DNA of 35,832 nucleotides from Candidatus Bathyarchaeota archaeon (GTDB taxonomy: Archaea > Thermoproteota > Bathyarchaeia > Bathyarchaeales > Bathyarchaeaceae), in the NCBI GenBank assembly GCA_029879825.1, contig JAOUPL010000002.1, positions 1 through 35,832 on the forward strand, written 5' to 3'. Position 1 is the first letter of the stretch; the number at the start of each line of letters is the position of its first letter. The position numbers were made by a program, and so were the translations under genes. The notes under the pieces are model-generated. The model ran no database searches and had not been told where the DNA came from. It saw only the letters and a program-made list of their open reading frames with translations. This document shows positions 5,348-34,499 of this stretch, in pieces.

Positions 5348-5845
5348 TTAGCCTCCAATTTTCTCAATAGTTATTCGGCAGGGTATGGGTAGTTTGGCGC
5401 CTCCCCGCTTTAAGGCCTCCTTTGCGACTTCGAGGCCATCCTCATTCACGTTAACCATTATGACCGCTTGGTCCGATTTCACTCGTGCCGCGGTTCCTAT
5501 GGGTTTCCCGAAGGCCTTTCTCATTCCGTCTTGAAGTCGATCTGCGTGCGCTCCAAAAATCATTTTGTTTTCACGCAACACGACATGGGGATAAGGCAAG
5601 ATTTGTAAAAGGTAACTGCTTCCCAATTTTTCTGAAAGCAGTCTATTTGTTGCTACGCGTGCTGCCTCCAAGGCGTTATGTCGAATTTGGGCTTCCTTCC
5701 GGGCGACCAAAAGAGCTTGATACTCAAAACTACCTGTGGGGTCTCCCATGGTGAATTTTGTTATTTTTGGCGAGGGAGAGCCTCGCATATACTCTTTCCT
5801 TGTGTAGGACTGGCCCTTTGCCTTTCGATAGTTGCGTGCCTTCAT
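5348..5845 (-). CDS. rpl10e: 50S ribosomal protein L10e (uL16)
   Basis: 165 aa; MKARNYRK...YTRKEYMRGSPSPKITKFTMGD and PYPHVVLRENKMIFGAHADRLQDGMRKAFGKP. Confidence 0.95.
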   Translation of the reverse strand: MKARNYRKAKGQSYTRKEYMRGSPSPKITKFTMGDPTGSFEYQALLVARKEAQIRHNALEAARVATNRLLSEKLGSSYLLQILPYPHVVLRENKMIFGAHADRLQDGMRKAFGKPIGTAARVKSDQAVIMVNVNEDGLEVAKEALKRGGAKLPIPCRITIEKIGG

Positions 5846-5960
5846 GGTTTATCCCTCAATGGCCTCCAACCATGATATTTAAGCCTTTGTTAATAAACCA
5901 TTCCTTACTGAAAGAATTGATTTGAAATCCGAATCATCAAAACAAAAGTTCTCGTAATTT

Positions 5961-6488
5961 CTATGGGTTTTCATTTTTGAACCATATTTTGGCTAATTCA
6001 TCAAAGTTTGGAAAAACGTTCTTCAGGATTGGAAGGTACATTTTTTTCTCGTCTTCGGTTACGTACTGGAATTGATATTGTCCCATGTAGGGGGATGGCT
6101 CGCCTTCTCTGGTTACGAACTCGATGTGCATGAAGGGGTCTCCTCTCTTAATCGTTATTGGTTGCCTGTCGTTGTTTAGGTTAACGAGTTCCAAGGCTAG
6201 TCTTCCAATGAAGCCGCTGTGAACCTTTGCAGCGTTGAGAAAGGATAATCCTCTCCTTCCATACTTACTCTTTGCTGTGAGATGAGCCACGTAGTCCGGT
6301 GGCGTGAACACAACTTCATAGGAAATGAGGTTTTTATGTTCAAGATAATGTAACGTGGTTTCTTCTTTCACGGTTAGGATGTAACTCTCGCCGTCTAGGA
6401 GATTGTAGTCGAAGGGATAAATTATCTTATACTTTTCGATAAGTTCCATCAGCTTGTCTTTGCCGAGAATACACATACAATTCTTCAC
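5961..6488 (-). CDS. dcd: dCTP deaminase family protein
   Basis: 175 aa; dUTPase/dCTP deaminase fold pattern TAKSKYGRRGLSFLNAAKVHSGFIGRLALELVN. Confidence 0.75.
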   Translation of the reverse strand: MKNCMCILGKDKLMELIEKYKIIYPFDYNLLDGESYILTVKEETTLHYLEHKNLISYEVVFTPPDYVAHLTAKSKYGRRGLSFLNAAKVHSGFIGRLALELVNLNNDRQPITIKRGDPFMHIEFVTREGEPSPYMGQYQFQYVTEDEKKMYLPILKNVFPNFDELAKIWFKNENP

Positions 6489-17828: not shown

Positions 17829-18416
17829 ATGCAGGAAAAGGTTATAATAGGTATAGACTTGGCCGGAGTGGAAAAAAATCCAACCGGATGGGCTTTGTGG
17901 AAAAACAAATTTATCTCCACCTGTCATCTTTACGAGGATCAGGAAATCTTGGAGCATCTAACAAAGTTTGAACCAACCTTAATCACGATAGACGCCCCTC
18001 TAAGCCTACCTAAAAAGGGAACCATGAGAAAAGCGGACAGAGAAATGTATAGACAAGGATATCCGGTTTTTCCCCCACGTTTTCCAACCATGGAAAAGTT
18101 GACCTTACGCGCCATCAAAATAACTCAACAATTTAAAAGAGAGAAAGTACACATAATCGAGGTCCACCCAACATCCACCCGTAAGGCGCTAAAGATTCCT
18201 ACGAAAAATTGGAAAAGAATTCAAGGCATCTTCATACATATGGGTCTGAAAGGGGACCTAGAAACGCGTGCTTTAACGTCCCATGAGATTGACGCTGTAA
18301 CGGCGGCGTTAACAGGATATCTTTACCTGCAGGAAAAAACAGACTTAATAGGAGATGGAGAAGAAGGCTATATTGTTGTTCCAACGAAGGGAGACTGGAG
18401 GAGGCTGAAGTTGTGA
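17829..18416 (+). CDS. DUF429 family protein
   Basis: IGIDLAGVEKNPTGWALW...ITIDAPLSLP...IIEVHPTSTRKAL...SHEIDAVTAALTGYLY. Confidence 0.75.
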   Translation: MQEKVIIGIDLAGVEKNPTGWALWKNKFISTCHLYEDQEILEHLTKFEPTLITIDAPLSLPKKGTMRKADREMYRQGYPVFPPRFPTMEKLTLRAIKITQQFKREKVHIIEVHPTSTRKALKIPTKNWKRIQGIFIHMGLKGDLETRALTSHEIDAVTAALTGYLYLQEKTDLIGDGEEGYIVVPTKGDWRRLKL

Positions 18417-19954
18417 GTGAAGACGAGAGGCTTCAAAGAGCCGTTTCCTTCACGATAGCATCCGGCTATCAATTGAATAAAGAAGCCTTCGAGTTTTTGA
18501 ACACAATTTCTAAAACAGAAGACCCCCTCAGTTTGATGGAAGAAACCATCAGAAAAATCGAGGGTCTGCCTGAAAAACCGCTGTTCATAAATCGAAGTTT
18601 TCTGGAGGAGATGATGAAAGAAACGCTCCCTGAAGAGGAGAAGCCGTCTCCGCCTTTTTCTCCCTCACCTATCTTTGATGCGAGGAAAGTTTTTCGGGCC
18701 TATGCAAAAGACGTTGATGCTGACATAAAAGTGATTGACGACCCAACGGATAAAATCTGTACAACAGGATCTGTTGAGGAATATTTAGAATACTTTCAAG
18801 ATCGCTTCAAAAGAATGAAGAAAATTCTCAGAAGTAGGATAGACGCCAAGAACGCCATATCCATCTCAGAGGCTCTTAAGTTGTCAGTTAACTCAAAAGT
18901 TAAAATCATCGGCATGGTCACGGAAAAAAGAGAATCTAAAGGAAGAATCTTCTTGAGATTCGAGGATCTAGAAGCCAGCGTCACCGTGCTTGTACCCCAA
19001 AACGTAAGCAAAGAGGGCATGGCAAAAGCCCGGTCTTTGCTACTAGACCAAGTTGTTTGCGTAAGCGCCATAAAAGGAAGGAATGACCTGCTTATCGCAG
19101 AAGACTTCATCTGGCCAGATGTGCCTCAGAAAACCCCCCGCAAGGCTCCAATACCAGTCTACGCAGCTCTCATATCGGACTTGCACGTAGGAAGCAAAAT
19201 GTTTATGGAAAAGGAATTCAACCGATTTATGCTCTGGCTAAACGGAAAATTTGGAAACGAAAACACGCGGAACATAGCTGGCCACGTCAAATACGTAGTT
19301 ATCGCCGGCGATCTCGTGGACGGGATAGGTGTCTATCCAGGACAGATGAAGGAACTGGCGATAAAAGACATTTATGAACAATATCGAGAAGTGGCAAAAC
19401 TCATCGAACAAATTCCAGATTACATCGAACTAATAATCATACCGGGCAATCACGACGCGGCTCGAAAGGCGTTACCACAACCAGCCATACCGCGAAAATA
19501 CGCAGAACCGTTATACGAAGCGCGAAGGATGTACTCGCTAGGAAATCCTTGCACAGTTAGCCTCCACGAAGTGGAACTACTTCTATACCATGGGCGCAGC
19601 TTGGACGACGTCGCTGCTGTTGCTCCAAACGTAAGTTTCCAGACCCCAGACAAAGCCATGAAGCTCCTGTTGCAGAGCAGACACCTTGCGCCTATTTATG
19701 GAGAAAGAACTCCTATCGCCCCGGAAAACCGAGACTTCACAGTCATAGAAAGAGTACCAGATATCTTTCACGCCGGCCACGTACATGTACTAAAATGCGA
19801 CACATACAGAGGAACTCTCATAGTGAACTCAGGTGCTTGGCAGGGACAAACAGAATACCAAAAGAAGATGGGACTCGTTCCCACGCCTGGAATCGCGCCA
19901 ATCGTAAATCTCCAAACAATGCAAGTTGCAACCATCAATTTTACAGCATCCTAG
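18413..19954 (+). CDS. polB: DNA polymerase II (family D) small subunit DP1
   Basis: 513 aa; OB-fold then calcineurin-like phosphoesterase motifs ALISDLHVGSKMF, VVIAGDLVDGIGVYPGQ, IIPGNHDAAR, AGHVHV. Confidence 0.94.
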   Translation: MSEDERLQRAVSFTIASGYQLNKEAFEFLNTISKTEDPLSLMEETIRKIEGLPEKPLFINRSFLEEMMKETLPEEEKPSPPFSPSPIFDARKVFRAYAKDVDADIKVIDDPTDKICTTGSVEEYLEYFQDRFKRMKKILRSRIDAKNAISISEALKLSVNSKVKIIGMVTEKRESKGRIFLRFEDLEASVTVLVPQNVSKEGMAKARSLLLDQVVCVSAIKGRNDLLIAEDFIWPDVPQKTPRKAPIPVYAALISDLHVGSKMFMEKEFNRFMLWLNGKFGNENTRNIAGHVKYVVIAGDLVDGIGVYPGQMKELAIKDIYEQYREVAKLIEQIPDYIELIIIPGNHDAARKALPQPAIPRKYAEPLYEARRMYSLGNPCTVSLHEVELLLYHGRSLDDVAAVAPNVSFQTPDKAMKLLLQSRHLAPIYGERTPIAPENRDFTVIERVPDIFHAGHVHVLKCDTYRGTLIVNSGAWQGQTEYQKKMGLVPTPGIAPIVNLQTMQVATINFTAS

Positions 19955-20525
19955 TGAGCCCACGAGCAACAAGTCTAGCCACCCTTATGGGTTCAGGAAC
20001 CCTGCAACAAACAGATGTAGCGCGGATCAACCTGCTCGCCCAGTTCATTTCGGCGCCAACAACCTCCACATAAACGGGCGGCTCAGCGGGCATCGAAACA
20101 ACTTCGTATACGGAACCAAGCTTCTCAAAGACCCTCCAGCGAATCCGCCAGTCTTCAAAATGCTGACGAAGGGCATTTTTTACAGCGATATTGTTTGGTT
20201 TCGTTCTCGAAATTACGATGACGGGGTTGCTGAACTCTTCGAAAACAATTGTGGGATCCACCAGATTGAAGCCTGCAAAAGAAACTCCCGCCAGCATAAC
20301 AGCGTCAAAAGACCATCGGTGCAGCATGGAGGTTAATTTCTCTGTAGCGTCCAAACCGTCTACGGTTATCATATCCGCTTGAAAATCGTTGATCCATTTT
20401 CCTCTTAGTAAAACACAAACGAAAAGGGCTTTCTGAATGCCACAACTTTGTAGTTTCCTAGAGAAACCTCCGTCTTCAACTCCTACTACCCGAAACTCCC
20501 GCCAAACATTTAGGGACATAATCAA
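19941..20525 (-). CDS. DUF99 family protein (endonuclease V-like fold)
   Basis: VVGVEDGGF..., DAVMLAGVSFAGFNLVDP, NPVIVISRTKPN. Overlaps the end of orc1/cdc6. Confidence 0.8.
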   Translation of the reverse strand: MIMSLNVWREFRVVGVEDGGFSRKLQSCGIQKALFVCVLLRGKWINDFQADMITVDGLDATEKLTSMLHRWSFDAVMLAGVSFAGFNLVDPTIVFEEFSNPVIVISRTKPNNIAVKNALRQHFEDWRIRWRVFEKLGSVYEVVSMPAEPPVYVEVVGAEMNWASRLIRATSVCCRVPEPIRVARLVARGLTRML

Positions 20526-21726
20526 TCAAACGCCCGAGTCTATCGTCAGTAGTAAATACTTCTCTAATAAGACTGCGGCCGATACCCAAACGAATTTTTT
20601 TCGTACGTCCATATCGTCCCATGCTTACAACCCTCGCGTTCAACAAGCCTATCATGTCTAATTCGTTAATCAGACCACTAACCCGCCTCTGAGTCAGCGG
20701 AGAAAGGCCAAACTGATCGCAGAGTTCACAATAAATTTCATAAATGTCACCAGTGATGGCACAGCCAACTTTCGCCTTGCCCAACAGATAAACGCTGCAT
20801 AAAACCAATTTTGAGTATAAGGGGAGGTTTACCAAAACTTCTACAATTCGATCATGCTCAACCCTCTTCTCAGCCTGCCTTACGTGATCTTCAGTAACAC
20901 AGGACGATCCCTCCCGCTCTGCTAACTCGCCTGCAACGCGAAGGAGATCTAAGGCCCGTCTAGCGTCACCATGTTCCGCGGCAGCTAAGGCAGCGCACAA
21001 ACTTACAGCACCATCAAGAAGCACCCCCTCAAAAAAGGCCAGTTGAGCACGTTCCCAGAGGATGTCCTGAAGTTCAGCTGCGTCGTAAGGTCTAAAAACT
21101 ATTTCCTCCTCGCTTAGGGAACTCAAAACTCTAGGATCTAGAAACTCCTTGAATCGAAGGTCGTTTGATATCCCCACTATCGCGGTTTTACCGTGGCGAA
21201 GAGTTTCGTTTACTCGGGTTAATTCGTAAAGCAACACATCGCCCCGAACCTTTATTAGCGCATCGATTTCGTCAAGGACAACGATGAAAATATTTTTCTG
21301 TAAGTCCAATCCTTCTTTAAATCTATCAAAAACTTCTCCCACAGCCAAGCCCGTGAAGGGAACCTTCACGCCTAAGGCATCACATAAGCTTGAAAGGACC
21401 CTGTACTCTGTGCCAGCTAAGCGACAGTTTACATAACAAACCTCAACAGGAGCCCCCAATTCACTTGCTTTAACAGAAAGCCTGTTCAGCATATATTTCG
21501 TAGCTGCCGTTTTTCCTGTACCAGTTTTACCGTAGATAAAGATATTGGAGCATCGAGAACTTTTCAAAACAGGAGCAACTATTTCGCCCAGACAATTAAT
21601 CTGTCTCTCACGATGCGGAAGCTTGTCGGGAACATAATCGTGCCGCAGCACTTCCCTGTCCTTAAAAATATGAGTGCCCCTTAGAAATCGTTCAAAAACA
21701 TCATCGAGCACGTCGAGTTCGTCCAT
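20476..21726 (-). CDS. cdc6: Orc1/Cdc6 replication initiator
   Basis: 416 aa; Walker A FIYGKTGTGKTAATKYML, Walker B IVVLDEIDALI, sensor GISNDLRFKEFLDPRVLSSL, C-terminal winged helix. Confidence 0.95.
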   Translation of the reverse strand: MDELDVLDDVFERFLRGTHIFKDREVLRHDYVPDKLPHRERQINCLGEIVAPVLKSSRCSNIFIYGKTGTGKTAATKYMLNRLSVKASELGAPVEVCYVNCRLAGTEYRVLSSLCDALGVKVPFTGLAVGEVFDRFKEGLDLQKNIFIVVLDEIDALIKVRGDVLLYELTRVNETLRHGKTAIVGISNDLRFKEFLDPRVLSSLSEEEIVFRPYDAAELQDILWERAQLAFFEGVLLDGAVSLCAALAAAEHGDARRALDLLRVAGELAEREGSSCVTEDHVRQAEKRVEHDRIVEVLVNLPLYSKLVLCSVYLLGKAKVGCAITGDIYEIYCELCDQFGLSPLTQRRVSGLINELDMIGLLNARVVSMGRYGRTKKIRLGIGRSLIREVFTTDDRLGRLIDYVPKCLAGVSGSRS

Positions 21727-21900
21727 ACAACAATCACCTACAGGTAAGTGCAGAGGTGATGCCTCAGTTTCAACTCCGACAGATAAAAACTCTCGTACAA
21801 AAAACTAGACGTACCACACACAAAAACAAAGAAAAACGACACTCTCTCAGCAAAAACAATTTGAAGCTGTTTTGTCGACGTAGGAGTCGACTCTCACACC

Positions 21901-22116
21901 CTCACACCCCTATATTTCTTCTGGAAATAAGTCTCGAAGAAATATGGTATGGCTATTCTTTTATAAGAATAAGTCTCCGCTTGGTTTTTGACTTTTCTAT
22001 ACTTAATGATTATTGTAAAAGACTTTTGAGTATATCCTACAAATTTTTATTTAAAAAGCCAGTCTACGTGTTGGTCACCAGTTCATGAGTCCAATGGAAA
22101 TAAAGGGGTAGGAGTG
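21901..22116. other. oriC: Putative replication origin core: inverted ORB-like elements flanking an AT-rich stretch
   Basis: Minus strand of 21901-21925: TCCAGAAGAAATATAGGGGTGTGAG. Plus strand 22090-22116: TCCAATGGAAATAAAGGGGTAGGAGTG. Both resemble the archaeal ORB core (TCCAnTGGAAAnnAAGGGG), in opposite orientation, with AT-rich sequence between; immediately upstream of orc1/cdc6. Confidence 0.65.
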
Positions 22117-22227
22117 TCAACTTTGACGGAGAATCCTGATGAAAAGACGCAAGTATGCATAACCTTACACTGGATACCTACGGTCAAGGGCAGCTTACAC
22201 ACTCTTTTAATGATTGTGTTAAACATT

Positions 22228-22524
22228 TAACTTGTTGTAGAATGTTGTGAAGTTAACTTCTAAATGCCTCCTTTTTTCCTCCTTTACTAGGAAAATTAAC
22301 TCCATTATGTGTCGTTGTGCGTTGAAATACGTCCCCTAGGCTTCTACTGGAAAAAGGAGTTCATCAACCGTCTATTCTCCATTTTGAGAAAGTAGGCCTA
22401 AGTGAAGTTTGTGAACCTAATAAACTGCAAATTTTCGTTGATTTCTGCTTTGCGTCGATTTTTCGGTTGTTTTATCGGCGCCCTCTTTACCGTAATTTCT
22501 ATAACTTGTGAAGTGTTAACTTGT
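22228..22524. promoter_or_regulatory. TAACTTGT-type repeats and palindromes upstream of the wHTH gene (candidate operators)
   Basis: TAACTTGT at 22228-22235, 22502-22509 and 22517-22524; palindrome GAAGTTAACTTC at 22249-22260; GTTAAA-CA-TTTAAC just before the first copy. Confidence 0.35.
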
Positions 22525-22544
22525 AAAGACTTTCGGGGTCATGG

Positions 22545-22976
22545 GTGCATGGAATGCCGGCTAGAAAAATGCGGGTGGAGATCTTCAACGGCAGCGGGGA
22601 CCGCTACACCATAACTTTTGAGGGCCAGGTGACGAGAGAAAAGGCTCTTCGCCTACTAGACCTCGTTGAGCTCTTAGGAGGTGTGCCCACGGGTAATCCT
22701 GGTTTGAATCGCCCCACATCCGAGTTGTCCAAAATTGACAAAATCCGCCTAGTCGTTGAAAAAAGTTTTCCAATCGGATGGTTTTCTTGTAGGGATGTTC
22801 AATGCACATATGAAGAAGAGTTTAAGGAACCCATCAGCCTGAGCACAGTTTCCACTTACCTGTCTCGAATGGCTGATCGCGGGGTCCTCACCAAAAGCAG
22901 GACTTCCAACCGCCGACGTTATAGGATCATGACTGAAGTGTCCAAAGTATCAAGTTTTATGAAAGATAATAAATAG
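22545..22976 (+). CDS. Winged-helix DNA-binding protein, putative regulator of the NurA/HerA cassette
   Basis: 143 aa; C-terminal SLSTVSTYLSRMADRGVLTKSRTSNRRRYRI is a typical wHTH. Start could also be ATG 22569. Confidence 0.65.
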   Translation: MHGMPARKMRVEIFNGSGDRYTITFEGQVTREKALRLLDLVELLGGVPTGNPGLNRPTSELSKIDKIRLVVEKSFPIGWFSCRDVQCTYEEEFKEPISLSTVSTYLSRMADRGVLTKSRTSNRRRYRIMTEVSKVSSFMKDNK

Positions 22977-23050: not shown

Positions 23051-24037
23051 ATGAGTAAAATAAGTGAGGACTTGGCAGAGATGAAGAAAAAACTTGGTGA
23101 ATATGTTAACAAGGGGCGCGTAATAGGTTTTCATGAAGTTAGGAAGGAGCCTGTTATAGCAGTTACGCCTGATAAGTCTAAAATAAAGCCTTTGAGAAAA
23201 ATGAAAAGTTGCGACGTACATTTCATGGCTGTAGACTGTTCAACGAGGACCTTGAAGAGGGCTAATAATTGGGGAATCTACCTATTTCGCACGGCATACG
23301 CTCTAGTGAGGAGACGCGACGTGCATTGGGACTACGAAGAGAGAATTCACACTGTAGTGGGGGATGCCTATGTACGTCGCAAGATATTGCAAGATGTTAG
23401 GCTTAATCTGGAAAGTGAGATAGCTTTAAGGTTGGTTCGTGATGCCGGTGAAAGTAATTACCTACTCCTAGATGGCGCTAGCTACTTTGGTGGAGAGAGA
23501 AAGTTCTGGGTGGAGTTATATGAAAAATGCAAAGAAGAAGGGCTCAAACTTTTAACAATAAGCAAGCAGTCTCCAATGCTTCATGATGAGAAAGGGCGGG
23601 ACTTGATGGCTGCGACGTGCATGCTTTCTCCTTCTTATCCGCTATGGGTCTACTACCCAGTCAAACCAGCAAACATACATGAACATCAGTATGGCGACGT
23701 ATCTATGGTCAAACTTAGTGGAGAAAGTCCACGCATTTTCCGATGCGATATAATGGAATATTTACGCAACTGTGAAATCACTGAGTTACTTTCTCCACTT
23801 ACCTTCGTATCAGAAGATCCTAGATGTCTTGGCTATCCAGTTACTCTTTGGCTGGCTCACGATTTTTCGACTCCATCCGACTCGATGCTTCTTCACTATC
23901 ATGATCAAGTTGAGGAAACGCTAGCCAGTGCCGGGTTGTTAAATGTACTTCGCGTTGAAGAACTCTCATGCAGCTTTCCAGACGAACTTCATGGGGTAAA
24001 ACACCCGTTTCAGCGGGAGTGGATTGAGCATGTCTGA
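23051..24037 (+). CDS. nurA: NurA-like 5'-3' nuclease
   Basis: 328 aa; NurA-type motifs FMAVDCSTRTLKRANNWGIYLFRTAYALV, LLLDGASYFGGE, TISKQSPMLHDEKGRDL; overlaps a HerA-like ATPase gene. Confidence 0.72.
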   Translation: MSKISEDLAEMKKKLGEYVNKGRVIGFHEVRKEPVIAVTPDKSKIKPLRKMKSCDVHFMAVDCSTRTLKRANNWGIYLFRTAYALVRRRDVHWDYEERIHTVVGDAYVRRKILQDVRLNLESEIALRLVRDAGESNYLLLDGASYFGGERKFWVELYEKCKEEGLKLLTISKQSPMLHDEKGRDLMAATCMLSPSYPLWVYYPVKPANIHEHQYGDVSMVKLSGESPRIFRCDIMEYLRNCEITELLSPLTFVSEDPRCLGYPVTLWLAHDFSTPSDSMLLHYHDQVEETLASAGLLNVLRVEELSCSFPDELHGVKHPFQREWIEHV

Positions 24038-25583
24038 GCCTGTAGGGTTTATTCGTGAGGTACGAGGGGATAAGGTTTCGTTCTTCCTTAATCGAGGAGT
24101 CAACCTTTCGTTTGGTCAGATGGTTAGAATAGACTCTGGCAACAGAAGCTTCTATGCCCGTGTGGTGGATGCCGGGAGTTGCTCTACATTAAAAACGGAT
24201 GAGCAACTTCGTGAAGCCGAAGGGAAGGAATCTTTTGGGCCTTACTCCAGCTATAGGCATGTTGACGCCATTCTTTTCCTTGAGAAGGATGCTGGAAGAA
24301 TTCGTTCTCCAACCTTTAATCCTGATTATATGGACAGGGTATACGCAACCAGTCAGGAAGACTATTCGGTTTTGAGGCTTGCAGGGGAGTTAGAGATAGG
24401 ACGTTTGCGTTCTGGAGAGCATGTGCTTGGCTCTGTAGGCATAAGTGTTGAAGCCATACCTTTGATGATGGGCATGTTTGGAATGACAGGCTCTGGGAAA
24501 ACGAATTGTGAATTAATGCTTAACGCACGGATCGTAGATTCTAGTCCAAGGACTGTCGGTCTAATTTTCGATTTTGCAGGTCAACTTCTAGAGGGAAAAG
24601 GAATAAGGCCTCAACAAGGTCTGCGGGATCATCCCCTTTTTCACACCAAGGTTCGCTACTACTCGGTTAGAGAACGGAAGATGCTTATTGGCTTGTATAC
24701 GATTCAACCCCAAAAACTTTACACATTTTTCCCCGACATAACCCATCATCAAGTCAGACTGGCTCATAAACTTTACAACAGATTGGGAAGCACTTGGATA
24801 GAACAGTCGCGAGAAGCCTATGGTAGAGACGGGTATAAAGGAGTGGCTGCGTTCACTGATTACAAAAGCAAAGCTGTGATAGATGCTCTTATGCTTAAGC
24901 TCTCCAGTTTATCCCCAGACCTCTTCCCGCCTTCTGACTACAGTTTTGTCGATGATGTGGTTCAGAATGTAAGTAAAGGCGTCACCTGTCTCATCGACAT
25001 TTCAGGAATCAGTTTTGAGGAGCAGCATCACGTGACTTGCCTTACTGCTTCTAGTGTGGCTTTCCACTACAAGCGGATGTGGGAAGGCAATTTTGAGGAG
25101 TGGAAAAAGCTTCCAACCCTCCTGATAACTCTTGAGGAGGCCCATGAATTCCTTGACCCCAACCTACCTAAAACCATATTTTCTGACATCGCCCTCACAT
25201 ACCGAAAGTATCGGGTCGGACTGAATGCTGTGACTCCGCGGCCTTCAAGAATAAACCCTAACGTCTTCGCCGAGCTTTGGACCAAGGTCATTATGAAGAC
25301 AGAATTGCGCCGCGACAGGGACTACCTTACCCAAAACACGCCCTACCTTGAATACAGCGACACCGAGATAAAAATGCTAGATGTTGGAGAAGCATTACTT
25401 ATCTCAGAACCGCAAATCCGATTCGCTGTTCCGATAAAGGTCATTCACTACCCTGACTACTTGGACGAGAGGGGACGGGTCGAATATGATTTGCCACCGT
25501 CAAAACCACTTTCTGAGATGGACGAAAAACTGAGGAGAATTCAGCAGGCTGGGAAGTCTCTCACTGCGAAAGGTGAAGGCTAA
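24030..25583 (+). CDS. herA: HerA-like ATPase/translocase
   Basis: Walker A GMFGMTGSGKTN, Walker B LLITLEEAHEFLD, Arg-finger-like VTPRPSRINPNVFAELWTKVIMKTELRRDRDYL, N-terminal HAS-barrel-like region. ATG 24030 overlaps the nurA stop (track start 24024 is TTG). Confidence 0.85.
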   Translation: MSEPVGFIREVRGDKVSFFLNRGVNLSFGQMVRIDSGNRSFYARVVDAGSCSTLKTDEQLREAEGKESFGPYSSYRHVDAILFLEKDAGRIRSPTFNPDYMDRVYATSQEDYSVLRLAGELEIGRLRSGEHVLGSVGISVEAIPLMMGMFGMTGSGKTNCELMLNARIVDSSPRTVGLIFDFAGQLLEGKGIRPQQGLRDHPLFHTKVRYYSVRERKMLIGLYTIQPQKLYTFFPDITHHQVRLAHKLYNRLGSTWIEQSREAYGRDGYKGVAAFTDYKSKAVIDALMLKLSSLSPDLFPPSDYSFVDDVVQNVSKGVTCLIDISGISFEEQHHVTCLTASSVAFHYKRMWEGNFEEWKKLPTLLITLEEAHEFLDPNLPKTIFSDIALTYRKYRVGLNAVTPRPSRINPNVFAELWTKVIMKTELRRDRDYLTQNTPYLEYSDTEIKMLDVGEALLISEPQIRFAVPIKVIHYPDYLDERGRVEYDLPPSKPLSEMDEKLRRIQQAGKSLTAKGEG

Positions 25584-26290
25584 GCCATAGCTTCCCTCTT
25601 CTTCAGGATTTTCTGCATTTCTTCCTTTAGGCGGTAAGTATAGGGCATTTTATGGGTGTCTCTCTCCAAATAGCCGTCTTCATAAAGCTTTTTCATTAGA
25701 CGAGCAGTGTGCTCCCTCGTAAGTTTTATTTTTTCTCTGATTTCAGGCGCCGTTTTTTCACCCTCTTTGGCGATGGTTTCAAGCGCAGTTAGTTCGGTTT
25801 CTGTTAGCGGAGCCAAGGCTTTTTCCTTTTTGATGGGAATAGCCGCCTCTATTCTCGCTTCAGGCACTTGGACTTTATATTTTAGTTTTTCAACCTCCTC
25901 AATTCTTTGTACTATCTTATTTTCCGTCGCTTTTATGTCGTCAACTTTCTTGTTCATCTCCTCGATCTGCGTAGACAATTTCTGTTCAATTGCGGGGGCA
26001 TCTTCAACTATGTTGGCAAGAGTCGCTAATCGCTTATCGTATTCTTCTACCTTCTTCACAACTTTTTCGTTCTCGGAAGAAATTATCTCTATTTTATGGG
26101 TGACTGCACGGAGGCCAGCCGCTTGTCTTTGAAATTGTCTGTTGACGCTCATGGTGATGTCACCCACGGTGTTCTTTGCCTCTTCGTATTCCTCGTGAAC
26201 CCTTCTTATTCGCTTATAGTAAAGGGCAGACGCACCCATTGTGACAAGCAATAGGGCTGTTACAACTATTAGAAGAAGATAGGTGTACAC
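25580..26290 (-). CDS. Membrane-anchored coiled-coil protein with C-terminal winged helix
   Basis: 236 aa; N-terminal hydrophobic helix TYLLLIVVTALLLVTMGASALYY, long charged heptad-like region, C-terminal LTETELTALETIAKEGEKTAPEIREKIKLTREHTARLMKKLYEDGYLERDTHKMPYTYRLKEE. GTG start preceded by GAGGAGGGGG. Confidence 0.72.
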   Translation of the reverse strand: MYTYLLLIVVTALLLVTMGASALYYKRIRRVHEEYEEAKNTVGDITMSVNRQFQRQAAGLRAVTHKIEIISSENEKVVKKVEEYDKRLATLANIVEDAPAIEQKLSTQIEEMNKKVDDIKATENKIVQRIEEVEKLKYKVQVPEARIEAAIPIKKEKALAPLTETELTALETIAKEGEKTAPEIREKIKLTREHTARLMKKLYEDGYLERDTHKMPYTYRLKEEMQKILKKREAMA

Positions 26291-26364: not shown

Positions 26365-26495
26365 TGTGATTCGAGTGTGATCCCTTGTGATCTGCATAAT
26401 GTGATCACACATCACATTATCGTATAGATGAACTTAAATTTTATGTTAGAATGGGGGAGAATAACGATAATCAAAATCGTGACATCACACGTCAC
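26365..26495. repeat. Phased TGTGAT/ATCACA repeat cluster with inverted repeats
   Basis: TGTGAT at 26365, 26376, 26386, 26400; ATCACA at 26404, 26411, 26484. Perfect IR ATAATGTGAT-CACAC-ATCACATTAT (26396-26420) and GTGAC-ATCACAC-GTCAC (26479-26495). Confidence 0.85.
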
Positions 26496-26725
26496 AACAC
26501 GGCCGTAAAAACTCTGCGAGTTCAAAGGACCACATAAGCGTAACTTCTCTTCAACGTTGCTCATTCTTCCTCCATCTACCAAACTGAATCAATGCGAAAG
26601 ATGCTTTGTTTATTTAAAAGGGGCTCAAATTCGAGCTTAAATTACTGTGGTGCGTGTTTACCCTGTGAAGCATCCCAATTCTGGTACTGTGGGATTAATG
26701 CGTCGCGTCTCCGCTGTTATACGGT

Positions 26726-26744
26726 TGTGATTTGTGATATCACA
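26726..26744. repeat. TGTGAT repeat plus perfect palindrome TGTGATATCACA
   Basis: TGTGAT 26726-26731; palindrome 26733-26744, overlapping the stop codon (26740-26742) of the 26740-27291 minus ORF. Confidence 0.85.
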
Positions 26745-27213
26745 GCTTTTCTGACATAGTTCTTGGTTTAGATAATTGTTCTAGACTCATTTTCAATTCT
26801 TCATGGAGCATGCTTATTATTCTTAAATGTTCATCTGTTGCTTTTTTCCCAAGGCCTCTATTCGCTTTCATGTAGGCTTGCAATTTGTTTGCAACTTCCA
26901 GATAGGGATCTAGGCGAGTATCCTCAAAAACTCCCAAATATCCTAGAAGAAGAATCGTGTAGATGGATTGAATGACGTTCCACCTAGCTTGCCTCAAAGT
27001 TCTGTTGAAAGCACCACGACTTACGGCTGAAAGCCTTAATCTGGCTTTTTCATCGTATTTTAATGACTTTCCGGATATATTCTCAGCCAAAATGTCAATT
27101 AAAAGTGTTTCTAACTGTGTTTTAGTCAAAATACTGTTTTTCGCTAGTGTTTTTACAATCGGGTCATCTAAAGAGCGTATTAACCATTTTTGCGCCTCCT
27201 CCTTCAAGCGCAA
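26740..27213 (-). CDS. Uncharacterised helical protein, possible DNA-binding protein
   Basis: ORF track gives 26740-27291 (TTG start). TTG at 27213 has GAGGTG spaced 6 nt upstream and leaves the 27248-27271 inverted repeat in the 5' region. Product contains LTKTQLETLLIDILAENISGKSLKYDEKARLRLSAVSRGAFNRTLRQARWNVIQSIYTILLLGYLGVFED. Confidence 0.6.
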   Translation of the reverse strand: MRLKEEAQKWLIRSLDDPIVKTLAKNSILTKTQLETLLIDILAENISGKSLKYDEKARLRLSAVSRGAFNRTLRQARWNVIQSIYTILLLGYLGVFEDTRLDPYLEVANKLQAYMKANRGLGKKATDEHLRIISMLHEELKMSLEQLSKPRTMSEKL

Positions 27214-27247
27214 TATTTCCACCTCAGAGCAGTGTCTAGGGGATACA

Positions 27248-27271
27248 CTTTTGTATACAAGCATACAAAAG
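27248..27271. promoter_or_regulatory. Perfect inverted repeat CTTTTGTAT-ACAAGC-ATACAAAAG (candidate operator)
   Basis: 9-bp perfect arms with 6-nt spacer, near the 5' end of the 26740 minus gene. Confidence 0.5.
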
Positions 27272-27588
27272 GTTTGTGGTTTCTTCCTCAACGGGCCGTA
27301 TGCATTTGTTTAACTCAATACTGTGAAAATATACAAATATGAAAAAACTTTGTACGGAAAAAATCGAAGTAACAAAAAGACTCTTTTTTTTCAAACACTC
27401 TCAAAAACGATCATGGAGCATCATGGCCTTTGTTGTTCATTATTCTTTCTTCCTCACGCAATGTGTTTTGGTGTTATTCGTCTGGGTTAGAATTGCGAAA
27501 CTCACAGGGCTTGGTGGTCCCCCTCGTTGGGGAAAGGAAACGCGGTCACGTTTTGTCCTGTGACTCGAACGTGTGGCGATGTTACAGG

Positions 27589-27700
27589 TGTGATGGTATA
27601 TTTGAGAAAAATGACTTTAGGGTATGCTGATGGTGTGATTTTTTTCTGATCACAGGAAGATCACGTGTGATTGTCACAAATGTCAAAACCGTGATATCAC
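27589..27700. repeat. Second TGTGAT/ATCACA cluster
   Basis: TGTGAT at 27589, 27634, 27666; ATCACA at 27649; ATCAC-GT-GTGAT (27660-27671); palindrome GTGATATCAC 27691-27700 directly abutting the stop codon of the 27701-28033 minus ORF. Confidence 0.8.
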
Positions 27701-31088: not shown

Positions 31089-34000
31089 TTGGACATCGAG
31101 ATGAGCAAAGAGTATCAGCAATACACGGCTGTTTTAGAAAAAAGCCTCGAGAGCGTGTATGCTGTTGCAAGAAAGGCGAGAGAGAGGGGGCTAGACCCTG
31201 CCCTCAGTCCTGAGCCTGAAGTAGCGAAGGATCTAGCCGAACTCGTCGAAGGACTTGTTGGTCCTCCCGGAGTTGCTGAAAGTATACGAGATTTGAGCAA
31301 AAAGTTACCTCGAGACGAACTTGCTTTCAAGATTGCCGAGCAAATTGTTTATGGAAAATTTGGGCACATGGATGCACGTGAAGCAGCCGAGCAAGCGATA
31401 AGAACCGCCCTCGCCATATTAACCGAAGGAATTACTGCGGCTCCCCTGCAGGGTGTAGCGCGAGTAGCTGTCAAATCCAATCCTGATCGAACAAAGTATC
31501 TCGCAATTTATTACGCTGGTCCAATACGCTCTGCAGGCGGCACTGAGCAAGCCTTAACCTTGGTGATCGGAGATTTTGTTCGCCGCCTGCTCGGGTTGGA
31601 CCGTTATAAACCAACCGAGGAGGAGATTAGCCGTTTCATAGAAGAAGTGCGGTTATTTGAGCGGGCAGTAGCTAGATTTCAGTATCATGTTTCAGACGAG
31701 GAATTGAGAAGGGCTGTTCAGTTTATTCCAGTGGAAGTCACCGGCACAGAATCCGACCCAATTGAGGTTTCATCCTTCCGTAACCTACCTCGAATTGAAA
31801 CAAACCGAGTTCGAGGCGGGGCTCTTCGAGTTGTAAATGATGGGGTCGTGGGACGCTCTGCAAAAGTGTGGACGATCGTTGAGAAACTGGGACTCGAGGG
31901 ATGGGATTGGTTAGGAAGAATAAGGGAAATCGAGGAAAAAAGGACAGCTGGGTTTATGGAAGATGTCATCGCCGGCCGCCCAATTTTCTCATTTCCGTCT
32001 ACACGTGGGGGCTTCAGGCTTCGCTATGGGAGAGCAAGGAACACAGGCCTTGCAGCAGTGGGCATCCACCCCGCGACCATGATGGTTCTTGGAAACTTTC
32101 TCGCCGCAGGAACGCAACTGCGCATAGAAGGGCCTGGAAAAGCCGGAGTTGTTGTCCCTGTGGATACGATAGAACCCCCGGTTGTGCGTCTAAAAAATGG
32201 GTCCGTTGTCCGTGTTTCACTTCAAAATTTTAAACAAATCCAAAACGTGATTGACAAAATTCTATTTATTGGGGACATTCTCATCGGATTTGGCGACTTT
32301 TTATACAATAATAAACCTCTGCTTCCGTCTGGTTTCACCGAAGAATGGTGGCGTGAAGAGCTTCGCGCGGTCATCAAACAAGATTTTAACGGCAGTTTAG
32401 AAAAGGCTGCTGCAGCCGTCAAGATTCCCACCCTCCGTCTCGAAGGCATGTTAGGCGACCCGTTCAAAAACAAGCCAAGCGCCAAGGAGGCAATAGCGTT
32501 GTCTTCAACGTTCAAGGTGCCTCTTCATCCTTTTTTCACCTTTTTTTGGTCCAGCATTTCCTCTGAAGAGTTTCAAACGTTAAGGAAATGGCTCTTGAAT
32601 TCCGAAAGGCAAATCGACGCCAGTGTTGTCCAAGAAATAACTGGCGTGAAGAACGAAACGACAAAAGTTCTGCTTGAAAGAATTTTGGTTCCACATGAAG
32701 TCGTTGAAAACAAAATTAAGATAGAAAGCGATGAGGCGCACATCTTCGCTTTTTGCCTTGGGCTACACGCCCCCAAAACGACAGTTCATTCAAAAAGCGT
32801 TTTTGAAATCATGCAGAAACTCGCGGGGGTCCCTATCAGAAAAAAGGCTCCTACCTTTCTCGGGGCCAGAATGGGACGCCCAGAAAAGGCTAAGAGGCGA
32901 GAGATGAGGCCGCTCGTTCACGTCCTGTTTCCCGTCGGGTTGGCTGGTGGCTCTCGACGAAATCTTATAGCGGCGTTGAGCAAAGTTGCGATAGAAGTTG
33001 ACCTCGTTAAGCGTCGTTGTTTGGGGTGTAATGAGTTAACCTTCAAAGCGAAATGTCCTCGGTGTGGCGCAGAAACCGTTGTGGAGAAATTTTGCCCTAG
33101 ATGCGGGAGGCGTCTAAAAGAAAGTTTTTGTCCGGTTTGCAGGGTTCCAACGAGAAGTTACGAGAAACAATTGGTTAATCTTAAAGAGTTGATGGACGAA
33201 GCCTGCAGAAAGCTTAATCTTCCTATCCCTGAACTCGTGAAGGGTGTAAAGGGTTTAATGAATGAAACAAAGACGGCGGAAATCCTTGAAAGGGGGATTC
33301 TACGAGCGAAACATGATCTGTCTGTCTTCAAGGATGGGACAATACGGTTCGACGTTACAAACGCTCCATTGACGCATTTTAAGGCAACAGAACTCGGCGT
33401 GCCTGTTGAAAAGCTTCGGCAACTTGGCTACTCCTACGACTGCGATGGAAACAGCTTGACCGATTCTAATCAGGTATGTGAGCTTAAAGTGCAGGACGTG
33501 ATTATTCCGTTGAAGAGCGCAGAATACTTTGTTCGCGTTGCCAACTTTCTAGACGAGCTTCTAGAAAAGGTATACGCGCTTCCTCCATACTACAACATTA
33601 AACGAGTTGATGACTTGATTGGGCATCTTGTTGTAGGTTTGGCACCCCACACTTCCGTAGGCATCCTTGGGAGGATCGTCGGCTTTACTCGTCTAAATGT
33701 TTGCTATGCTCATCCTCTATGGCATTCGGCGAAGCGCAGGGACTGCGACGGCGACGAAGACACGCTAATGCTGGCTTTGGACACGATCTTGAGCTTCTCT
33801 AAATCTTATCTGCCTGCTCAGATAGGGGGAATAATGGACGCTCCGCTGTTCATCATCCCGGTGGTAAATCCATTGGAAGTGCAGCGGCAAGCTCATGAAG
33901 TCGATGTTGCTGCAACGTATCCATCCCTTTTTTATGAAAAAACTTGGCAGAAGGCAGCGCCCCAGAAAGTGAGCGGACTCATAGACCTCATTGAACATCG

Positions 34001-34499
34001 ATTAAACACCCCCGCGCAGTTTCAGGGTTTCAAGTATACGATTCCCGTTTCCGATATCAATATGGGCAATGATGAGAGTGTATATAAGAAATTGGGGCAG
34101 ATGATTAATAAGTTACATAGCCAGCTTACATTGGCAGAAAAGATCGAGGCTGTCGACGCTAAGAGGGTTGCGAAGAAGGTTCTAACTACACACTTTATCC
34201 GCGACATAGCTGGCAACTTAAGAGCTTTCACCACCCAAAACTTTCGATGCAAATCCTGCAACAAACGGTTTAGAAGGCTACCTCTCCGTGGAAAGTGTCC
34301 AGACTGTGGAGGCGCCGTGACCCTAACCGTTTATCGTGGAGGGATTGAAAAATACTTGGAGGCGGCGCATCAACTCGTTCAGAAGTATGGTCTCTCTGAG
34401 TATTACGCTCAACGGCTTTTGTTGGTTGAAGAAGAAATCAGATCGTTGTTCGAAGGTAATAGACCTAGACAAGTCAGCTTGGCAGATTTCGTCGCTTAG
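31089..34499 (+). CDS. polC: DNA polymerase II (family D) large subunit DP2
   Basis: 1136 aa; YYAGPIRSAGGTEQALTLVIGDFVRRLLGL, AHPLWHSAKRRDCDGDEDTLMLALD, Cys-rich zinc motifs; length consistent with no intein. Confidence 0.96.
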   Translation: MDIEMSKEYQQYTAVLEKSLESVYAVARKARERGLDPALSPEPEVAKDLAELVEGLVGPPGVAESIRDLSKKLPRDELAFKIAEQIVYGKFGHMDAREAAEQAIRTALAILTEGITAAPLQGVARVAVKSNPDRTKYLAIYYAGPIRSAGGTEQALTLVIGDFVRRLLGLDRYKPTEEEISRFIEEVRLFERAVARFQYHVSDEELRRAVQFIPVEVTGTESDPIEVSSFRNLPRIETNRVRGGALRVVNDGVVGRSAKVWTIVEKLGLEGWDWLGRIREIEEKRTAGFMEDVIAGRPIFSFPSTRGGFRLRYGRARNTGLAAVGIHPATMMVLGNFLAAGTQLRIEGPGKAGVVVPVDTIEPPVVRLKNGSVVRVSLQNFKQIQNVIDKILFIGDILIGFGDFLYNNKPLLPSGFTEEWWREELRAVIKQDFNGSLEKAAAAVKIPTLRLEGMLGDPFKNKPSAKEAIALSSTFKVPLHPFFTFFWSSISSEEFQTLRKWLLNSERQIDASVVQEITGVKNETTKVLLERILVPHEVVENKIKIESDEAHIFAFCLGLHAPKTTVHSKSVFEIMQKLAGVPIRKKAPTFLGARMGRPEKAKRREMRPLVHVLFPVGLAGGSRRNLIAALSKVAIEVDLVKRRCLGCNELTFKAKCPRCGAETVVEKFCPRCGRRLKESFCPVCRVPTRSYEKQLVNLKELMDEACRKLNLPIPELVKGVKGLMNETKTAEILERGILRAKHDLSVFKDGTIRFDVTNAPLTHFKATELGVPVEKLRQLGYSYDCDGNSLTDSNQVCELKVQDVIIPLKSAEYFVRVANFLDELLEKVYALPPYYNIKRVDDLIGHLVVGLAPHTSVGILGRIVGFTRLNVCYAHPLWHSAKRRDCDGDEDTLMLALDTILSFSKSYLPAQIGGIMDAPLFIIPVVNPLEVQRQAHEVDVAATYPSLFYEKTWQKAAPQKVSGLIDLIEHRLNTPAQFQGFKYTIPVSDINMGNDESVYKKLGQMINKLHSQLTLAEKIEAVDAKRVAKKVLTTHFIRDIAGNLRAFTTQNFRCKSCNKRFRRLPLRGKCPDCGGAVTLTVYRGGIEKYLEAAHQLVQKYGLSEYYAQRLLLVEEEIRSLFEGNRPRQVSLADFVA

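Follow-up and report, generated by a model that had tools for sequence, protein, structure and literature searches.

We analysed a 35,832-nucleotide stretch of a Candidatus Bathyarchaeota genome (assembly GCA_029879825.1, contig JAOUPL010000002.1, positions 1 to 35,832; here called the window), which carries an array of TGTGAT half-sites around p183, a reverse-strand gene (26740-27291) for a 183-amino-acid helical protein. Beside it, on the same strand, lies the gene for TM-wHTH (25580-26290), a 236-amino-acid protein with a transmembrane (TM) helix, a coiled coil and a MarR-like winged helix (wH), which is the putative reader of the array. Among the 23 exact copies of TGTGAT or its complement ATCACA in the window, 14 fall into the ~1.3 kb from 26365 to 27671: TGTGAT on the forward strand at 26365, 26376, 26386 and 26400, ATCACA at 26404, 26411 and 26484, and further copies of either form at 26726, 26733, 26739, 27589, 27634, 27649 and 27666. 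A preliminary description of this DNA had reported about 14 such hexamers, and all were found where it had placed them, as were the palindromes at 26400-26409, 26733-26744 and 27691-27700 and an inverted repeat with 10-bp arms (26396-26420). When GTGAC variants are included, the array holds 21 half-sites. Overall, the case for the array is stronger than that description had made it.

The array is not a single block but a set of conserved modules around p183. Module M1 (26365-26416) consists of three direct TGTGAT copies (spacings of 11 and 10 bp) followed by TGTGATCACA and ATCACA, M2 (26478-26496) of CGTGACATCACACGTCACA, and M3 (26726-26744) of TGTGATTTGTGATATCACA, which overlaps the p183 stop codon and is the most conserved element. 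Upstream of p183, module B (27545-27700) comprises scattered TGTGAT/GTGAC half-sites and the palindrome GTGATATCAC at 27691-27700. An intergenic alignment of nine genomes contained three clearly conserved blocks, namely M1, M2 and M3; all are half-sites, while the DNA between them has diverged. The overlap of a palindrome with a stop codon, already pointed out in the preliminary description, is real, and the site at the p183 stop keeps its position across genomes. The helical phasing of 10-11 bp proposed there applies to the first three direct copies, a part of M1, only, since half-sites in the genomes compared are most often spaced 7 bp apart when direct and 6, 7, 13 or 15 bp when inverted.

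The density of the motif is a local property. When the 2.4 kb surrounding p183 were shuffled 60 times with dinucleotide composition kept, copies averaged 1.4 and never exceeded 4 (versus 14 observed). Windows of 500 bp contain 9-10 TGTGAT at the array and no more than 3 elsewhere, as counted over 800 kb of one relative (G012) and 400 kb of another (G024); similar density elsewhere, named beforehand as the finding that would speak against a special array, did not appear. Within the own genome, window counts covered 146 kb of other contigs in addition to the window and reached at most 4 per 500 bp; the sole inspected windows at this value lie on contig C137 of the same genome (G000:C137, about 5501-6300, locus L220). 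Searches for paired sites covered the whole own genome assembly (1.28 Mb, 76% complete). Inverted pairs of the form TGTGATN{0,20}ATCACA occur at the array only (5 of 5 places), and 5 of the 6 places with direct pairs (TGTGATN{0,20}TGTGAT) are located there as well. In one relative (G019), an identical 19-bp site, TGTGATATGTGACATCACA, is present at C1:240235 and, 36 kb away and in opposite orientation, at C1:276606, representing either an assembly duplicate or a true second copy.

Conservation of the array at the same locus was found in relatives, as the preliminary description had suggested checking. Across the window and 20 related genomes, in which the gene order around the array largely recurs, TGTGAT ranks first in enrichment among all 6-mers at the locus (268 observed versus 10.3 expected). 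In families with reduced TGTGAT counts, the palindrome is kept in the form GTGAYRTCAC, and every family inspected carries a copy of it at the p183 stop or directly beside it. Orthologues of TM-wHTH were detected in 52 and p183 in 53 of 61 related genomes, and a profile search across 400 genomes of the phylum yielded p183 in 159; the gene is conserved beside TM-wHTH through much of this phylum. Most of the deeper genomes that were checked also have the two genes side by side, and nearly all of 22 loci (L180-L201; families f19, f48 and f51) display a TGTGAT excess, for example 14 versus 2.

The array lies 4-5 kb from a predicted replication origin. Upstream of the orc1/cdc6 replication initiator gene (20476-21726, reverse strand; NF001625, 518 bits), an intergenic region of ~800 bp (21727-22544) contains G-strings and elements resembling origin recognition boxes (ORBs), CCAATGGAAATAAAGGGG at about 22091, CTTCTGGAAA at about 21918 and CTACTGGA at about 22344. 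ORB-like elements are found upstream of cdc6 in most relatives, in some with the canonical form TCCAGTGGAAACTTAGGGG, and this intergenic region is likely to be the oriC of the window genome and its relatives. The conserved cluster further comprises the gene for wH143, a 143-amino-acid winged-helix protein (22545-22976, forward), and the genes for the small (DP1, 18413-19954, forward; NF003118, 515 bits) and large (DP2, 31089-34499, forward; NF003103, 1454 bits) subunits of PolD. Between oriC and array lie a NurA-like (23051-24037, forward) and a HerA-like gene (24024-25583, forward); the score of the protein encoded by the latter falls far short of the cut-offs for HerA and CedD. GGGP synthase and NAD synthase genes are also found near the array.

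Adjacent TM-wHTH and p183 genes together with the array reach down to Nitrosopumilus-like and Nitrososphaera-like genomes (taxon names inferred). Linkage of this pair to wH143, GGGP synthase and PolD was also observed in two single-contig genomes (L170 and L171); in L171 (1,645,259 bp), cdc6 follows across the sequence start. We take the L171 genome to be that of N. maritimus, which has a genome of 1645 kb with one origin (PMC5333045). Here, ~1.5 kb separate the array from the ORBs of what would be the single mapped origin, which lie with G-strings upstream of cdc6, and there are array sites within the coding sequences of both the p183 homologue (at its 3' end) and TM-wHTH (in its 5' part).

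We then compared the distribution of array and TM-wHTH over 88 loci. Adjacent TM-wHTH and array were found together at 65 of them, 12 encoded TM-wHTH without a clear TGTGAT excess, 11 had neither, and none had the array without TM-wHTH. One further locus (L164) was excluded from this count, as TM-wHTH is on another contig there; one site lies near TM-wHTH on this separate contig and another at the p183 end. In all 11 p183-bearing loci that lack TM-wHTH the array is missing. Since four loci (L153, L154, L155 and L157) keep p183, wH143 and cdc6 and lack both TM-wHTH and array, the array follows TM-wHTH rather than any of those three genes. Among the 12 loci without TGTGAT excess, four (L158, L160, L059 and L143) belong to the families with GTGAC palindromes, and most of the others encode a short protein. 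Among the lineages with a short protein, two TM-wHTH relatives of 143-149 amino acids (L174 and L175) stand apart in having six TGTGAT close to p183. On the p183 tree TM-wHTH changes at least seven times, with few of the changes on well-supported branches.

TM-wHTH is predicted to start with few residues followed by an N-terminal hydrophobic TM helix, a long coiled coil and a C-terminal wH. The winged helix of the window protein contains the conserved sequence REHTARLMKKL, nearly invariant as REHT(A/S)RLMKKL, and a recognition helix of the form REHT(A/S)RxxKKL is kept in nearly all array-bearing lineages. Foldseek comparison of an AlphaFold2 (AF2) model of the wH gave matches to MarR proteins and to AspA, which binds the centromere of the archaeal plasmid pNOB8 (4rs8_A, TM-score 0.72 on target; 5k5q). 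For p183 of the window, sequence searches of Pfam and PDB gave no credible match and a search of NCBIfam none, and its L171 homologue had no significant match in NCBIfam. The p183 structure model is helical, of low confidence (predicted local distance difference test score, pLDDT, of 53) and matches no fold.

The footprint-like conservation, the uniqueness in the genome and the co-occurrence with a gene for a wHTH protein are strong support for an array that binds protein; this much holds of the operator, iteron and centromere readings offered in the preliminary description, while its iteron or origin-initiator version is disfavoured, since the ORBs are located separately, upstream of orc1/cdc6. 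Conservation, uniqueness and co-occurrence are most simply explained by binding of TM-wHTH, and we consider it probable that TM-wHTH is the protein that binds. There is about an even chance that the array is a centromere-like binding platform of the adjacent membrane-anchored TM-wHTH, which would tether or mark the origin region. Likewise, a role in tethering or segregation rather than in gene regulation alone, suggested with less support than binding, is a balanced proposition in our judgement. We lean to it because of the membrane anchor of the putative reader, the oriC-proximal position, the many modules and their spread past p183.

In the proposed mechanism, the coiled coil would join TM-wHTH into dimers or oligomers and the conserved recognition helix would contact TGTGAY half-sites, so that the modules around p183 could be loaded with many TM-wHTH copies. 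Since the site is single-copy and oriC is a few kb away, the resulting complex might hold the origin region at the cytoplasmic membrane. Such a centromere-like tether would position or segregate chromosomes, or couple initiation to the membrane, with p183 probably acting as partner of TM-wHTH.

The main rival is an operator array, through which TM-wHTH or another wHTH protein would control transcription of the TM-wHTH gene and p183 without any chromosomal role. It owes this rank to M1: the TM-wHTH gene has a TATA-like element (gtataaaata, ~26340), and M1 begins just upstream of it (about 15-20 bp, by eye). The MarR-like wH and the confinement of paired sites to the flanks of the TM-wHTH/p183 pair and its neighbours are also consistent with an operator. 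However, ~20 half-sites over 1.3 kb exceed the needs of autoregulation; they include one over the p183 stop and some at 250-400 bp upstream of that gene, and L171 has intragenic sites. In addition, TM-wHTH has no sensor domain outside the membrane, unlike ToxR-type regulators, and the constant linkage to orc1/cdc6 and PolD would be left unexplained. An operator without a chromosomal role is in our view less likely than not, and sequence alone cannot separate operator from centromere-like or tether function. A CRP-like operator was rejected: the CRP/FNR operator consensus is TGTGA-N6-TCACA, and the inverted offsets at the array are mainly 6, 7, 13 and 15, with the CRP-layout offset of 10 (between hexamer starts) seen once.

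With ORBs and the orc1/cdc6 and PolD genes a few kb away and p183 strongly conserved, the sites could also be an accessory element of the origin, to which Orc1/Cdc6, p183 or some other replication protein would bind to control initiation or unwinding. But the array sites are unlike the ORBs, which exist separately, and loci with cdc6, wH143 and p183 but without TM-wHTH have no array, which makes this explanation unlikely. The array is not itself an array of ORBs either, as its top 6-mers are of the TGTGAT type and ORB-like elements lie upstream of cdc6; the iteron reading was rejected together with the CRP and ORB readings, the grounds being motif, spacing and co-loss. A chance cluster or an artefact of composition, for which a mild overall frequency of TGTGAT in the window could be cited (23 versus 14 in shuffles), has a negligible probability and is already refuted by the conservation of the array, which keeps its position and is locally unique in many genomes.

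Several observations weigh against a membrane-anchored, centromere-like TM-wHTH platform. The co-occurrence is phylogenetically clustered, and an independent-pairs test had too few well-supported contrasts to reach significance; it is thus suggestive, but no proof. The protein can exist without the array, which is absent from most lineages with a short TM-wHTH (143-163 amino acids). In family f16 (L158 and L160), the TM-wHTH homologue has no TM segment and the sites are kept as GTGACGTCAC; a membrane anchor is therefore not obligatory. The modelled similarity to AspA falls into a very common fold that MarR regulators match equally, and hence is no evidence of AspA membership. GC/AT skew around the locus is contradictory between two single-contig relatives. 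Finally, no ParA-like motor was detected among the cluster genes searched, a search that was not genome-wide.

Among known systems, the array bears the closest resemblance to a centromere site near an origin. Like parS and ParB of the ParABS system, which functions in chromosome segregation, it combines short palindromic sites clustered near the origin with a dedicated, here putative, DNA-binding protein; the palindromic cluster is locally unique and located 4-5 kb from the ORBs of the predicted oriC. In contrast to parS, the half-site is TGTGAY, and the putative reader is a membrane-anchored wHTH protein, not a ParB CTPase. No ParB was found among the neighbouring proteins, which match Orc1, NurA-like, HerA-like and MarR-like proteins. 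AspA of plasmid pNOB8 shares with TM-wHTH an archaeal wHTH fold and palindromic sites beside its own gene; it recognises a 23-bp palindrome that precedes its gene, and it spreads (PMC5120986). However, AspA is a small soluble plasmid protein encoded in an operon with ParB and ParA, whereas TM-wHTH is chromosomal with a TM helix and a long coiled coil, and an aspA-parB-parA operon was not found in the gene neighbourhoods of the array locus.

SegAB of Saccharolobus is, like the array locus, an archaeal chromosomal system whose palindromic sites precede its own genes. SegB is a ribbon-helix-helix protein and its motif, TCTAGA-S-TCTAGA, is scattered over the chromosome (PMC12284271); here we found one locus, a TGTGAY motif and a wHTH reader candidate instead of TCTAGA and a ribbon-helix-helix protein. 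Archaeal ORB arrays at oriC are also repeated sites beside replication genes, but the ORBs (TCCANTGGAAA..AGGGG) lie apart from the array, upstream of cdc6, and the array motif is different. KfrA-type proteins are described as coiled-coil DNA-binding accessory factors of plasmid maintenance (PMC7783346). They resemble TM-wHTH in this predicted property and differ in belonging to bacterial plasmids and lacking oriC linkage.

The means by which archaea other than Sulfolobales hold and segregate chromosomes are an open question, and in a 2016 review the nature of chromosomal centromeres in archaea appears among the outstanding ones (PMC5120986). Tentatively, and with somewhat less than even confidence, we suggest that the array may be the first known chromosomal centromere-like membrane-tethering site outside SegAB in archaea, with a membrane-anchored wHTH reader and p183 as its partner, inherited from a common ancestor of the window's class and ammonia-oxidising archaea. 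A literature search, with most subscription journals outside its reach, found no paper on the locus, and none by guessed N. maritimus locus tags. An origin-linked array with a candidate membrane-anchored reader, present also in a presumed cultured ammonia oxidiser, makes the centromere question testable in vitro and by chromatin immunoprecipitation.

Besides the array, a second repeat (TGTGAA/ACTTCACA/AACTTGTGAAGTT) is located at 22250-22540, before the wH143 gene, and is enriched in 18-19 genomes. Perhaps TGTGAA/ACTTCACA serves the neighbouring wH143 protein.
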